Shown piece by piece: positions 7,194 to 15,799 of a DNA stretch of 27,454 nucleotides (the first letter of the stretch is position 1; each line of letters opens with the position of its first letter). Source of the stretch: a virus; the IMG/VR virus record IMGVR_UViG_3300017782_000160, positions 1-27,454 of that record. One strand, written 5' to 3'. Under the pieces are notes generated by a model. That model did no database searches. It saw only the letters and a list, made by a program, of their open reading frames with translations, and was not told the DNA's origin. The position numbers and the translations under genes are program-made.

Positions 7194-7838
7194 TTAATAA
7201 GTTAAAAATTCTGATCTGACTTCTGGCTTCAAAAATTCTCCACCAAGTCTTGTTGTTGTCGTTGATGATGATGCGTCTTCAATACCACGTGACTTGACGC
7301 AATAGTGAATGGCATCGATCTTGACGGCGACATCATCCGTCTTTAATATATAGCAAAGCGTGTGAAAGATCTGTTCTGTGAGTCTTTCTTGTATCTGTGG
7401 TCGTTTACTAAAGAAACGAACAATTCGATTGATCTTGCTTAATCCTATGACATAGTCCTTCGGAATGTATGATACTTTTGCAATACCATCGATTGTGACG
7501 AAATGATGTTCACAAGTTGACATCACTGAAATGTCTTTGATCGTAACCATTTCATCATATTTCATTTTGTTTTCGACACGTGTGCACTTCGGAAAATTGT
7601 CATAGTTTAATCCTTCGAATATTTCTCGCAAGTACATATGTGCAATCCTTCGTGGTGTGTCTGCAAGTGAATCGTCTGTCAAGTCAAGATTGAGCATTCG
7701 CATAATCACTTCAAATGATGTTTCAATATGCTTTTGACGTTCTGCAAAAGTGAAGTCTGTTGTGTGTGTCGGTGTTTCAATACCTAATTCAAGAAGCATC
7801 TTGTTGACTTCTTCTCCAAGTTTTCTGTCTGTTTTCAT
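7194..7838 (-). CDS. folE: GTP cyclohydrolase I FolE
   Basis: FolE opens GTP to 7,8-dihydroneopterin triphosphate, the first step towards folate and 7-deazaguanines. The 214-residue sequence keeps numbering close to the E. coli enzyme: zinc ligands C109 and H112 in STCEHH and C180 in HYCVKSRGI; also DTPRR (60-64), GLSKINRIV (132-140), RPQIQERLT (146-154) and the C-terminal TTTTRLGG. All catalytic elements are present. It is first in the deazaguanine cassette and supplies QueD. It overlaps the DnaA-domain-like gene by 4 nt (ATGA), tying base synthesis to replication genes in one transcript. Confidence 0.97.
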
Positions 7839-10069: not shown

Positions 10070-10297
10070 TTACTTTTTTTGTATTAAGTGTTTGTGAAGT
10101 ATTCGAGGCATCAAAGATCGTGTCAATGCTTTAACTTCTTTAAGTGTTTTGATGCGTTCTTTGTCAGTTGATTCTTTGATCTTCTGTCCGATCTCCGCAT
10201 TAAGTTGATTGATACTGCTTTCAACAAGATCAATGTCAAGTCCGACATCGTGTTCTTGTTTTTTGCAGTTTAATAAATTACCAAAGTTGATTTTCAT
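10070..10297 (-). CDS. Hypothetical helical protein, 75 aa
   Basis: A predicted all-helical, coiled-coil-like protein (SSINQLNAEIGQKIKEST, KERIKTLKEVKALTRSLM) with a basic C-terminus. Its ATG lies about 10 nt after a conserved leader stem-loop (10309-10360). No known family. Confidence 0.55.
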   Translation of the reverse strand: MKINFGNLLNCKKQEHDVGLDIDLVESSINQLNAEIGQKIKESTDKERIKTLKEVKALTRSLMPRILHKHLIQKK

Positions 10298-10308: not shown

Positions 10309-10360
10309 TTAGTTACTACCACCAAAACCTCGCATCGTTAAATGCAAGGCGATGATGTTT
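10309..10360 (-). ncRNA. Leader stem-loop element, copy 1
   Basis: On the minus strand, AAACATCATCG is followed by a 7-bp stem CCTTGCA / TGCGAGG with an 8-nt loop, then the invariant tail TTTGGTGGTAGTAACTAA. It matches copy 2 (10632-10685), which has a perfect 7-bp stem where this copy has one T:G pair, and a loop two bases longer. It sits directly upstream of the 75-residue ORF. A structured 5' leader, attenuator or processing site is likely. The tail also reads as a tiny ORF, MRGFGGSN-stop, in both copies. Confidence 0.55.
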
Positions 10361-10367
10361 ATTAATA

Positions 10368-10613
10368 TTAGAATCCGTCAGTTCTTTTTGTTATTGTGAA
10401 ACAATTAAACAAAGACAAGATGTCTTTGATTCTTGGCTCGTGAATGCAACCAATTTGCTCCTCCTCAAACCAATAGCCGTCTTTTAAATATAGCCAATAA
10501 GTATAGTCTTGTCCGTCAAAGACACCTGGATTGTACTCTCTTTCAACTTCACAAACTAAAGGATGATTTCTTAAATCATTTAGTGTTCTGCATTTTCTGA
10601 TTTGTGTTTTCAT
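10368..10613 (-). CDS. Hypothetical protein, 81 aa
   Basis: A small aromatic-rich protein (DYTYWLYLKDGYWFEEEQIGC at about residues 36-56) preceded by a basic N-terminus MKTQIRKCRTLNDLRNHP and followed by a helix IKDILSLF. It looks like a compact alpha/beta fold. I have the impression that similar small proteins occur in Flavobacteria and their phages, but I cannot name the family. It is flanked on both sides by copies of the conserved leader stem-loop and shares its start context with the next gene upstream. Confidence 0.6.
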   Translation of the reverse strand: MKTQIRKCRTLNDLRNHPLVCEVEREYNPGVFDGQDYTYWLYLKDGYWFEEEQIGCIHEPRIKDILSLFNCFTITKRTDGF

Positions 10614-10630
10614 TTTTACTTGTTTTAAAT
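10611..10630 (-). repeat. 20-bp shared start context, copy 1
   Basis: The 20 bases ending in the ATG of the 81-residue ORF (minus strand ATTTAAAACAAGTAAAAATG) are identical to 10982-11001. The A-rich, Shine-Dalgarno-free context fits Bacteroidetes translation starts and implies a common translation signal. Confidence 0.6.
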
Positions 10631-10631
10631 A

Positions 10632-10685
10632 TTAGTTACTACCACCAAATCCTCGCATTTGTTTCAGTGCGAGGCGTTGATGTTT
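10632..10685 (-). ncRNA. Leader stem-loop element, copy 2
   Basis: On the minus strand, AAACATCAACG leads into a perfect 7-bp stem CCTCGCA / TGCGAGG with a 10-nt loop, then ATTTGGTGGTAGTAACTAA, ending just before the start context of the 81-residue gene. It is conserved with copy 1 over about 50 nt. The T:G to C:G difference inside the stem and the tolerated loop-length change point to selection on RNA structure. Its tail ATTTGGTGG is complementary to CCACCAAAT in the leader of the upstream gene, so alternative pairing is conceivable. Confidence 0.55.
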
Positions 10686-10693
10686 GATTGATT

Positions 10694-10984
10694 TTAGTCT
10701 TTGTAAAAACCAATCTTGTTTAGAAAGTTGTATGATATATTAAATCCTCTTGATGCTTTACCTGTATTTGTTGAATACCTTTCAAATAAAGAAATCGCAT
10801 CATAGCCGAAATCTAACTGAAACCAATACCATTGAGCTGAATTTGAAAGTCTTATACCAATCATATCCAAGCCGTATCTATTAATTGAAGACGGTTTGAA
10901 TTCAACTGATGCTTTTCCTTGTTCTTTTAATTGATTAGCGATGTTCATCAATTTGTTACACTTTGGAGATCTTAAATTTTGCAT
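10694..10984 (-). CDS. Hypothetical protein, 96 aa
   Basis: The start is placed at the ATG at 10984 (MQNLRSPKCNKLM) because the preceding 20 bases are identical to those before the next gene; a GTG at 11089 would give a 131-residue protein. The product has an amphipathic N-terminal helix, then strands VEFKPSS, MIGIRLS, and aromatic-rich QWYWFQLDFGYDAISLF around residues 53-69. It is the first gene after the terminator/promoter region, hence probably among the earliest expressed. No family recognised. Confidence 0.55.
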   Translation of the reverse strand: MQNLRSPKCNKLMNIANQLKEQGKASVEFKPSSINRYGLDMIGIRLSNSAQWYWFQLDFGYDAISLFERYSTNTGKASRGFNISYNFLNKIGFYKD

Positions 10985-11001
10985 TTTTACTTGTTTTAAA
11001 T
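10982..11001 (-). repeat. 20-bp shared start context, copy 2
   Basis: Identical to 10611-10630. On the minus strand it ends in the ATG chosen for the 96-residue gene. Just upstream, about 11002-11022, is a short GGGC-GATGGT-GCCC hairpin in the leader. Confidence 0.6.
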
Positions 11002-11081
11002 TTGGTGGGCACCATCGCCCGTTGTTTTTACTTTTGTAAATATATACACTTTTTTTATATATACAAACAACTTTGAACAAT

Positions 11082-13775: not shown

Positions 13776-15799
13776 TAATAAAAATCATTTGGTGTGTACG
13801 TTACTATTTCAAGAAGTGACGTATCGTTTGTGATTGCAGTGACATCAATTTTTGTCTGATAATATTCGCCACTGATTTCATCTTTGTTTGCTATAAATTT
13901 ATAACCATTCATTGTCATTGTCGGATCTCCAGAAAAAGTCTTGTCAACAATACAAGCTAAAGGTGTAAAACTATAAGTCATATCACGAATGACAAAATTG
14001 TATTCCCTTAAATTTGTGAAGTCACGTTGTCCGACATAGTTTTGTTCCGTCAATATTTGTGTGATACGATCTTGTGTTCCTGTTTGCCAGGCTTGCCAGT
14101 TTTCTTCAATTGTATTCAACCAAGATGATCCGTTGTTGATTCTTATTCTTCCCCAACTTGGCGAAGCAGTTGTCGGACCGTCACCAATTCGCAAATTACC
14201 AAGATCCATTTCCTCGTTTGCATCTGAATTGTCGTCTTGCGTTACGAAGACACGTTCGAAAGGAGTATTTCCGTCAGTCGTGTATTGAATCAGTGAAGGA
14301 TATGACGCAGTGTTTGCCATAATTTGTACGTCATAAACTGATGTACCTTGTGGATCTCCGTCAGTTGTATATGTATTACCTTGAACAAAAGACGCAAAGT
14401 ATTCGACTTCGTCAGACACTGGAAGATCAGAAGTGATCATTGATACCTGTTGATAGCACCAATTGTCTATGTCATTTCCTTCGGTGTACGCATATTGATA
14501 CATATTGACTGCAATAACCTTGACGCACGATGTTTGTGTTGTTGTCCATTCGCCATTTGCTTCATCCCAATAATATGTACCGACTTTGATCATATATATT
14601 AAATGTACGTAGTCCATAAATGAATCCCAATTTGTTCCGGATCCAGAAACTCTTTTCAGTCTTGTACGATGATTGACTTGAATATATGCACCGCCACTTG
14701 CTTCGACATATCCCAAGTCAATCAAATTAGATTCCATATCAGCGTTTGACACAAAGTCTGAAAGATCTTGACTTGCTGAATAAAGACCATCGTCAGCCCA
14801 ATTTGAATATACTGCACGTGTCTTCTTTAATGGTGGATAGTATGTTTGACTACCTCCAGCAAGTTTGATCAAAGGTTCACTATCTCCTACCTTACCAAGA
14901 TCAAATATGATGTTTTGATACGCATAAGTTCCACTTCCTAATTCTCCTCCAGTTTTTGACATTCTACGATAGTACCATTTTGACAAATCATTTCTCCACA
15001 TATCGTGATGCACCACATAGAAAAAACCATTTGCTTGAAAGATACGACATCCAAAGGCTTCAAGAATACTTTTCAAAGTGTCGTATGCTGAAATTGATTC
15101 TGTCTTCACTGGATCTCCTTCGTCATATTCTATGTCACGAAATGCGTTTGGATAAAGTGCTGATCTTTCCCAAGGTGAATTTGATGAAGCAGGTGCAGGC
15201 ATAGTGTCTTCATACCAGTGCGTCATATCATACCACATTGTGCTTGTTGAATAAAAGTCTTGAACACCACCAAGATAATGTTCCAGCATATTTGAAACAA
15301 TGTGTCTGATCGTGTATAATCCATTGACATTTCCGTTCGTACCATTGTACACGTCACGATCAAAAGGAATGTCTTTCATTAATGCTAAACCACAAGACGC
15401 TTTGATCTTTGCAAGACTCGGTGCAGACTCGTCTGGTAGTGTCATTATATCAGCAGTTATCACACCATACCAAAAAGCAGAATATGAACCTCCTGAATTT
15501 GTACTTCTTTCAACACTTATTTTGAAACGTCCTTGATCTGATGTCTGCAAATTGTCAATGAATTGTTTTGCCGTACCTGTCAATCCGTAATACATACCGA
15601 CTTCAAGCGTTGATTCTTTCATCGTGTCGTATCGTTCTTTTCCTTTTCCTTTGTATGTTAATGTAAATCCGTTTGAATCTACGGTAAAAGGTATTTCTGA
15701 ATTTCCAAGTGCGTTTGTCGAATCATATATCTTGATGCGATACTGAATACCAAAGTCACTTTTGAATTCACTTTTCAATGCTGTTGTACCTAATGCCAT
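13775..15799 (-). CDS. Large tail-tip (hub/distal tail-like) protein, 674 aa
   Basis: This 674-residue protein follows the tape measure gene with a 1-nt overlap, the position of distal tail and tail-hub proteins in siphoviruses. The N-terminus (FGIQYRIKIYDSTNALG, residues 17-33) and the middle (YDTLKSILEAFGCRIFQAN with a following VVHHDMW strand) resemble tail-associated proteins of Bacteroidetes phages. Composition is rich in Tyr, Trp, Ser and Gly. No enzymatic motif was seen. Confidence is good for a tail structural role, low for the exact component. Confidence 0.65.
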   Translation of the reverse strand: MALGTTALKSEFKSDFGIQYRIKIYDSTNALGNSEIPFTVDSNGFTLTYKGKGKERYDTMKESTLEVGMYYGLTGTAKQFIDNLQTSDQGRFKISVERSTNSGGSYSAFWYGVITADIMTLPDESAPSLAKIKASCGLALMKDIPFDRDVYNGTNGNVNGLYTIRHIVSNMLEHYLGGVQDFYSTSTMWYDMTHWYEDTMPAPASSNSPWERSALYPNAFRDIEYDEGDPVKTESISAYDTLKSILEAFGCRIFQANGFFYVVHHDMWRNDLSKWYYRRMSKTGGELGSGTYAYQNIIFDLGKVGDSEPLIKLAGGSQTYYPPLKKTRAVYSNWADDGLYSASQDLSDFVSNADMESNLIDLGYVEASGGAYIQVNHRTRLKRVSGSGTNWDSFMDYVHLIYMIKVGTYYWDEANGEWTTTQTSCVKVIAVNMYQYAYTEGNDIDNWCYQQVSMITSDLPVSDEVEYFASFVQGNTYTTDGDPQGTSVYDVQIMANTASYPSLIQYTTDGNTPFERVFVTQDDNSDANEEMDLGNLRIGDGPTTASPSWGRIRINNGSSWLNTIEENWQAWQTGTQDRITQILTEQNYVGQRDFTNLREYNFVIRDMTYSFTPLACIVDKTFSGDPTMTMNGYKFIANKDEISGEYYQTKIDVTAITNDTSLLEIVTYTPNDFY

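Follow-up and report, generated by a model that had tools for sequence, protein, structure and literature searches.

Locus and element copies

The window, by which we mean the complete stretch of 27,454 nt analyzed here (IMG/VR virus record IMGVR_UViG_3300017782_000160, positions 1 to 27,454), is a 27.5-kb virus record that encodes TerL, a portal protein, an endolysin, Erf, an SSB-like DUF3127 protein, and a GTP cyclohydrolase. The last of these, a phage GTP cyclohydrolase I (7194–7838, minus strand; Pfam 3.5e-57), is possibly part of a 7-deazaguanine DNA modification pathway. A small-gene operon is located on the minus strand between a metallophosphoesterase gene and erf/ssb. Its first gene (10694–10984) is followed by an ORF of 81 amino acids without a family match (10368–10613) and by an ORF of 75 amino acids (10070–10297), which is distantly homologous, at about 30 % identity, to ORFs situated behind the element described below in the loci L005, L007, and L058. 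The second and third genes each have one copy of this element directly 5' of them, and each copy begins directly after a stop codon; the small early gene that follows it is located 5' of erf/ssb.

Copy B (10632–10692, minus strand) forms the leader of the 81-amino-acid ORF and copy A (10309–10367, minus strand) that of the 75-amino-acid ORF, the gap between tail and ORF being 26 and 19 nt, respectively. A 27-mer core common to both copies has exactly two matches in the window, where shuffled sequences led us to expect none. Both copies, each about 50 nt long and spanning 10640–10692 (B) and 10317–10367 (A) without the leader remainder, are predicted to fold into a bipartite hairpin composed of an outer helix P1 of 5–6 bp, a 2 × 2 internal loop, and a GC-rich helix P2 of 7–10 bp, followed by GUA. 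In copy B, the 5' strand of P1, CAUCAA (10677–10682), pairs with UUGGUG at 10643–10648 according to the minimum free energy (MFE) fold and the covariation of flank and tail in the family; the P2 hairpin CCUCGCA-CUGAAACAAA-UGCGAGG (10651–10674) is supported by the fold and by family covariation, and the 3' tail AUUUGGUGGUA (10640–10650) comprises the internal-loop side AU, the 3' strand of P1 (UUGGUG), and the unpaired GUA. P2 of this copy is separated by 19 nt from the stop codon of the gene upstream, the first of the operon. In copy A, the MFE fold pairs CAUCA (10353–10357) with UGGUG (10320–10324) and gives a P2 hairpin of 10 bp, GCCUUGCAUU-UAAC-GAUGCGAGGU (10327–10350), closed by a UAAC tetraloop of the UMAC type; its 3' tail is UUUGGUGGUA (10317–10326; sequence and fold). 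The predicted free energies are −18.4 kcal/mol for copy B (z = −4.35) and −20.0 kcal/mol for copy A (z = −5.47), and no shuffled sequence was equally stable in either case. Copy B scores 63.5 bits with a covariance model that includes it, and model R3, built without copy A, gives that copy 39.8 bits.

The initial annotation had placed two copies of a repeated leader in front of two genes, and they were found there on the minus strand, ahead of ORF starts at 10613 and 10297. Its description of the stem also agrees with the sequence: 7-bp arms are present in both copies (CCTCGCA/TGCGAGG, 10674–10668/10657–10651; CCTTGCA/TGCGAGG, 10349–10343/10333–10327), the fourth P2 pair is C:G in copy B and T:G in copy A with pairing retained, and the loop closed by the 7-bp stem measures 10 nt in copy B and 8 nt in copy A. 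Two points had to be modified. The tail was called invariant, which holds for TTTGGTGGTAGTAACTAA in the two window copies, whereas across the family GTAACTAA is unconserved and UUUGGUGGU varies in step with the 5' flank. Moreover, P2 and half of P1 had been described while the rest of the outer helix was overlooked; the element is larger than first described because the 5' flank CATCAA/CATCA pairs with the tail UUGGUG/UGGUG.

The leader of the first operon gene (10990–11070, minus strand) contains a different hairpin (GGGCGATGGTGCCC), which sits behind a promoter-like TTTG...TATATTTA. Next to this hairpin, on its 3' side, is CCACCAAAT, which is perfectly complementary over 9 nt to the element tail ATTTGGTGG; this match may be due to chance.

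Distribution of the family

Pattern scans and covariance models applied to IMG/VR virus contig stretches yielded at least 113 distinct copies of the element in about 94 loci, some of which may be close relatives; as a rule, one to four copies are present per record. A pattern combining P2 and the tail gave 74 stretches, nine of which were left out as chance matches or coding sequence (L009, L015, L017, L028, L038, L044, L045, L072, and L073). The covariance model added further copies within the same contigs, their stems differing by compensatory changes, two stem-free scans contributed additional stems (e.g., CCCCCCG/CGGGGGG, CCCCACG/CGTGGGG, GCCCATT/AATGGGC), and a tail-free scan anchored on the P2 hairpin recovered 33 copies with other tails. 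The search for further covarying copies had been set beforehand as the refutation test for the RNA interpretation, which withstood it in view of the 113 copies with their many compensatory P2 changes.

The phages carrying the element are uncultivated, and their hosts probably belong to the Bacteroidota, as suggested by the presence of DUF3127 in the records, TAnnTTTG promoters, and A-rich leaders. DUF3127 was present in 9 of 50 element-bearing records and, among 14 control genomes, matched only in Bacteroides. A copy with a UUCG tetraloop occurs in a GC-rich phage contig (L034, 3124–3171); the element is therefore not restricted to AT-rich genomes.

The initial annotation did not recognize the element as a described motif, and in Rfam 15 no family reached the gathering threshold in the window, a relaxed threshold giving only matches far below gathering scores. 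BLAST searches of INPHARED phages and PLSDB plasmids for the element gave chance matches or none, and in 18 isolate phages (17 with hosts of the Flavobacteriia and one crAss-like phage of Cellulophaga) the models R2 and R3 detected no real copy, the matches inspected being terminators or coding sequence. A search of the open-access literature for the tail string and the topic returned no relevant paper among the matches listed. Judged against Rfam, the open-access literature, and the 18 isolate phages, the element is classed as a new family of phage cis-acting leader RNA.

Evidence for a conserved RNA structure

Strong evidence for an RNA element comes from P2, in which paired bases change together, as exemplified by GCTCGCA/TGCGGGC, CCCGACG/CGTCGGG, GCTGACC/GGTCGGC, GCTCAAT/ATTGGGC, and CCTCACT/AGTGGGG. 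Pairing is retained in 96.8 % of the P2 cells compared to 87.9 % after shuffling, and the covariation score of 0.36 (0.185 when shuffled) was attained by none of 500 shuffles and lies far above every slid control. For the complete structure of P1 and P2, 11 of 13 pairs show two-sided changes in 64 ungapped sequences; again, no shuffle out of 500 matched the score and slid versions scored far lower. With a fixed register, the support for P1 is weak because its register varies between copies. When the tails were permuted among the flanks in a register-free test, the observed value of 12.7 (11.0 ± 0.3 for permuted pairs) was not reached in 20,000 permutations (p < 5e-5), and the non-canonical tails alone gave p = 1.5e-4. 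An earlier set with a fixed tail had already shown a flank complementarity of 13.4, compared to 11.4 in shuffled sequences, while a control stretch taken upstream gave 9.0. Matched flanks and tails include ACTACCA/TGGTAGT, ACTAGC/GCTAGT, CCGCTTCG/TGAGGCGG, and, in L113, AACCCAAACG with TTTTTGGGT. Thus, P2 and the whole structure covary beyond the shuffled and slid controls and P1 does so by permutation, with the reservation that kinship among the sequences can inflate such tests. A single recent duplication is disfavored by the diversity of the stems and by the distribution of the downstream genes over 57 clusters.

Several further features are those of a folded transcript. Among the P2 wobbles on the sense strand, 17 are G·U and one is A·C, indicating that the folding strand is the transcript read towards the downstream gene. 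The P2 loops are frequently GNRA, UMAC, or UUCG tetraloops or CUGAAANAAA. In the copies found without a fixed tail, the UU of the internal loop is kept while the 3' strand of P1 changes with the flank, and GUR (mostly GUA) just after P1 is kept in 30 of the 33 copies whose tail was left unfixed by the search. The palindromic nature of the element and its presence in several copies per genome would also suit a DNA-level repeat without a role as RNA, such as a mobile palindrome or a recombination or replication site; we consider this very improbable, since the orientation to the downstream gene and the position after stop codons are fixed, the loops are RNA tetraloops, and wobble pairs are found on one strand only.

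A leader peptide acting by attenuation or ribosome stalling has to be considered because both window copies and several relatives contain an 8-codon ORF, MRGFGGSN-stop (10632–10658 in copy B and 10309–10335 in copy A, minus strand), and MRGFGG is even more widespread. In many copies of the family, however, the start codon is missing or out of frame and the position of the stop codon is unconserved; the stem AGTGGGG creates an in-frame stop, TTTGGTGGT is free of synonymous drift, and all variable bases fit the RNA structure. A scan of bacterial genomes with the 8-codon pattern alone gave one chance match (Ketobacter). As none of start, frame, and stop is conserved, the leader peptide was rejected as a general explanation and must be regarded as extremely improbable. 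On this comparison, the ORF is a by-product of the element consensus, arising accidentally in the window copies. The original preference for an RNA element over a coding repeat is therefore borne out by an in-frame peptide that is not kept, by broken reading frames, and by the compensatory changes in P2.

Taken together, the comparative analysis of sequences establishes the element as a predicted cis-acting structured RNA of about 50 nt that serves as a phage leader of single genes in early or accessory operons. Its consensus, established in the same manner, consists of the predicted flank–tail helix P1, a small internal loop whose 3' side carries UU, the GC-rich helix P2, in which any stable loop may occur, and a 3' GUR that stays unpaired.

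Genomic position and downstream genes

An ATG-initiated ORF of at least 30 amino acids starts within 60 nt downstream of 104 of the 113 copies (median 24 nt, 5–95 % range about 13–37 nt), and three of the nine remaining copies are located at contig ends. On the other side, the stop codon of an upstream ORF is found within 60 nt of 98 of the 113 copies, at a distance of 15–26 nt in 75 of these 98 and with a median of 21 nt. When P1 is included, the element starts a few nt after the stop codon, so that part of this tight spacing may be mere compactness. Of the copies at first recorded as having no upstream gene nearby, about half proved on inspection to have one, and a minority resides in leaders to which no such gene is close. 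At least three copies of this minority lie behind a promoter-like TAnnTTTG, showing that an upstream gene is not required. A role as promoter was rejected, most copies being devoid of TAnnTTTG at a fixed distance. In L115 and L116, similar non-coding stretches (GGATATACGAACACGAACGTAT...) occur about 100 nt upstream of the element and possibly represent another structured leader.

Clustering of 75 downstream proteins resulted in 57 clusters without detectable kinship, which indicates that the element is not bound to one gene product; few of these proteins belong to named families, DNA methyltransferase, GP88, and DUF932 being examples. The element leaves the region around the start of the following gene unpaired, about 14 nt or more before the ATG being free in nearly all copies. 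In Flavobacterium, pairing is lower from about −20 to +20, more strongly so in highly translated genes (PMC6847099). In L010, L013, L036, L057, L059, L066, L069, L178, L181, and L185, another small hairpin, either of the GGCAATAGTGCC type or GTGCAAGGCAACGAAGCCAAGCAC, is situated between tail and ATG.

This arrangement bears on the possibility that the element is a translational operator, i.e., a binding site for a protein from phage or host that would repress or aid ribosome loading on the next gene, the copies forming a regulon. The element is nearly always upstream of a gene, mostly 13–37 nt from the ATG and thus at the edge of the low-pairing start region known in Flavobacterium (PMC6847099), several copies per phage precede unrelated genes, and the conserved unpaired UU and GUR adjoin the helices. 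The start codon, however, is located outside the hairpin at a variable distance, and no RNA-binding protein was identified as common to the records, so that we rate this explanation as possible but rather unlikely. Two other connections with the ribosome were discarded. A Shine-Dalgarno element, as a purine-rich complement of the anti-SD, would have to be positioned at a fixed 7–9 nt from the ATG, whereas the distance from tail to ATG is mostly 13–37 nt with a median of 24 nt and the tail sequence is variable; pairing of GGUGGU with the 3' end of 16S rRNA was dropped because the tail varies and the spacing is loose.

Comparison with intrinsic terminators and other phage RNAs

The intrinsic terminators of the same phages resemble the element in having a GC-rich hairpin with a C-rich 5' arm, a stable loop, and a short run of U residues, and in some cases they likewise lie about 20 nt downstream of a stop codon. 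They differ from it in that the U tract of the element is interrupted (NUUUGGUGGUA or variants), its G/U-rich tail pairs back to the 5' flank, and a gene nearly always follows. In L030 (minus strand; reverse-complement positions 14036 and 14949), one flank plus hairpin, ACCTACCTCACTA-GCTCAATCTTAACGGATTGGGC, is present twice, joined to the U tract TATTTTTTT in one case and to the element tail TTTTGGTGGTA in the other; here, terminator and element have one hairpin in common, the version with the U tract looking like a terminator.

A transcriptional pause site or attenuator, in which a hairpin of the terminator type and an interrupted U tract slow or partly stop RNA polymerase between genes, would account for this pair, for the C-rich 5' and G-rich 3' arms (114 C and 129 G over 29 stems) followed by NUUU, and for the tail ending 11 nt from P2. 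It does not explain why flank and tail covary although P1 forms only once the polymerase has passed, nor the lack of a U tract in all of 56 hairpin-anchored copies, nor the gene behind nearly every copy. The terminator-like composition and the hairpin pair in L030 leave a transcriptional role with some probability, and we consider it unlikely, slightly more so than a translational operator.

In the early operons of phage T7, intercistronic hairpins are processed by RNase III. Like the element, they are irregular stem-loops with an internal loop, located between genes of an early operon and beside unrelated genes. The T7 sites are longer (about two helical turns, with mapped cleavage) than the 11–15 bp plus internal loop predicted for the element from its sequence, and the element, unlike them, also occurs behind promoters and carries the conserved UU and GUR. 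The lambda nut site with boxB (PMC10250234) is likewise a small hairpin of a phage early operon, and some loops are GNRA-like; the loops of the element, however, differ widely, no boxA was seen by eye, and its copies accompany individual genes instead of standing once at the start of an operon. Coat-protein operators of ssRNA phages and other phage translational operators share the short hairpin upstream of a gene and a possible protein target, whereas the element is without a start codon in the hairpin, has a free loop sequence, and precedes many unrelated genes. Small structured RNAs, some of them in Bacteroidetes, were also described by Weinberg et al. 2010 (GUCCY-hairpin, Flavo-1, and others; PMC2864571), from which the element is distinguished by the absence of an Rfam match at gathering score or, in the case of the GUCCY-hairpin, which is absent from Rfam, by name only. 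The UGGU of the tail is reminiscent of the T box, but the tail of the element varies with the flank and no Rfam match was obtained.

Proposed function and significance

We tentatively propose that the element is a factor-recognized leader RNA which would give the downstream gene independent expression, most likely by RNA processing or stabilization; this version is the one we favor, with somewhat less than even confidence. The base of the helices together with UU and GUR would be recognized by an RNA-binding factor of the phage or its host, in the simplest case a ribonuclease or an RNA-binding protein. The bound factor may cut or protect the polycistronic message or control ribosome access, and the gene behind the element would then be expressed independently of its upstream neighbor. 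The likeliest single version would be a segmentation of the operon in the manner of the T7 intercistronic RNase III sites, although outside that family. Processing or stabilization is ranked ahead of translational control and transcriptional pausing, both of which are close rivals, because formation of P1 depends on a completed transcript, the space from the stop codon to the next start region is filled by the element, and the downstream genes are unrelated. Counting against it are the predicted length of P1 and P2 of only 11–15 bp, less than would be expected of a classical RNase III site, and the terminator-like composition (C-rich 5' arm, G-rich 3' arm, short U run). Genes for RNase III and ribosomal protein S21 were found in none of 50 element-bearing records, which are mostly fragments; a host enzyme could act.

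To our knowledge, little has been reported on the control of single genes inside the operons of Bacteroidota phages. It is conceivable, albeit rather doubtful at present, that the copies constitute a phage-wide post-transcriptional regulon of Bacteroidota phages, in which one RNA-binding or RNA-cutting factor reads the bipartite hairpin with its UU loop and 3' GUR before many unrelated accessory genes. Bacteroidota hosts do not use Shine-Dalgarno sequences, and if the regulon reading is true, the element would be an operon-internal control signal for phages of such hosts. Represented by more than 100 distinct copies, clearly structured, and always placed in the same way between stop and start codons, it provides a searchable model that can be tested directly at the bench and may lead to a new RNA-binding protein or nuclease. 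It also marks a set of small accessory genes, to which no function has been assigned, as being putatively under a common control signal.
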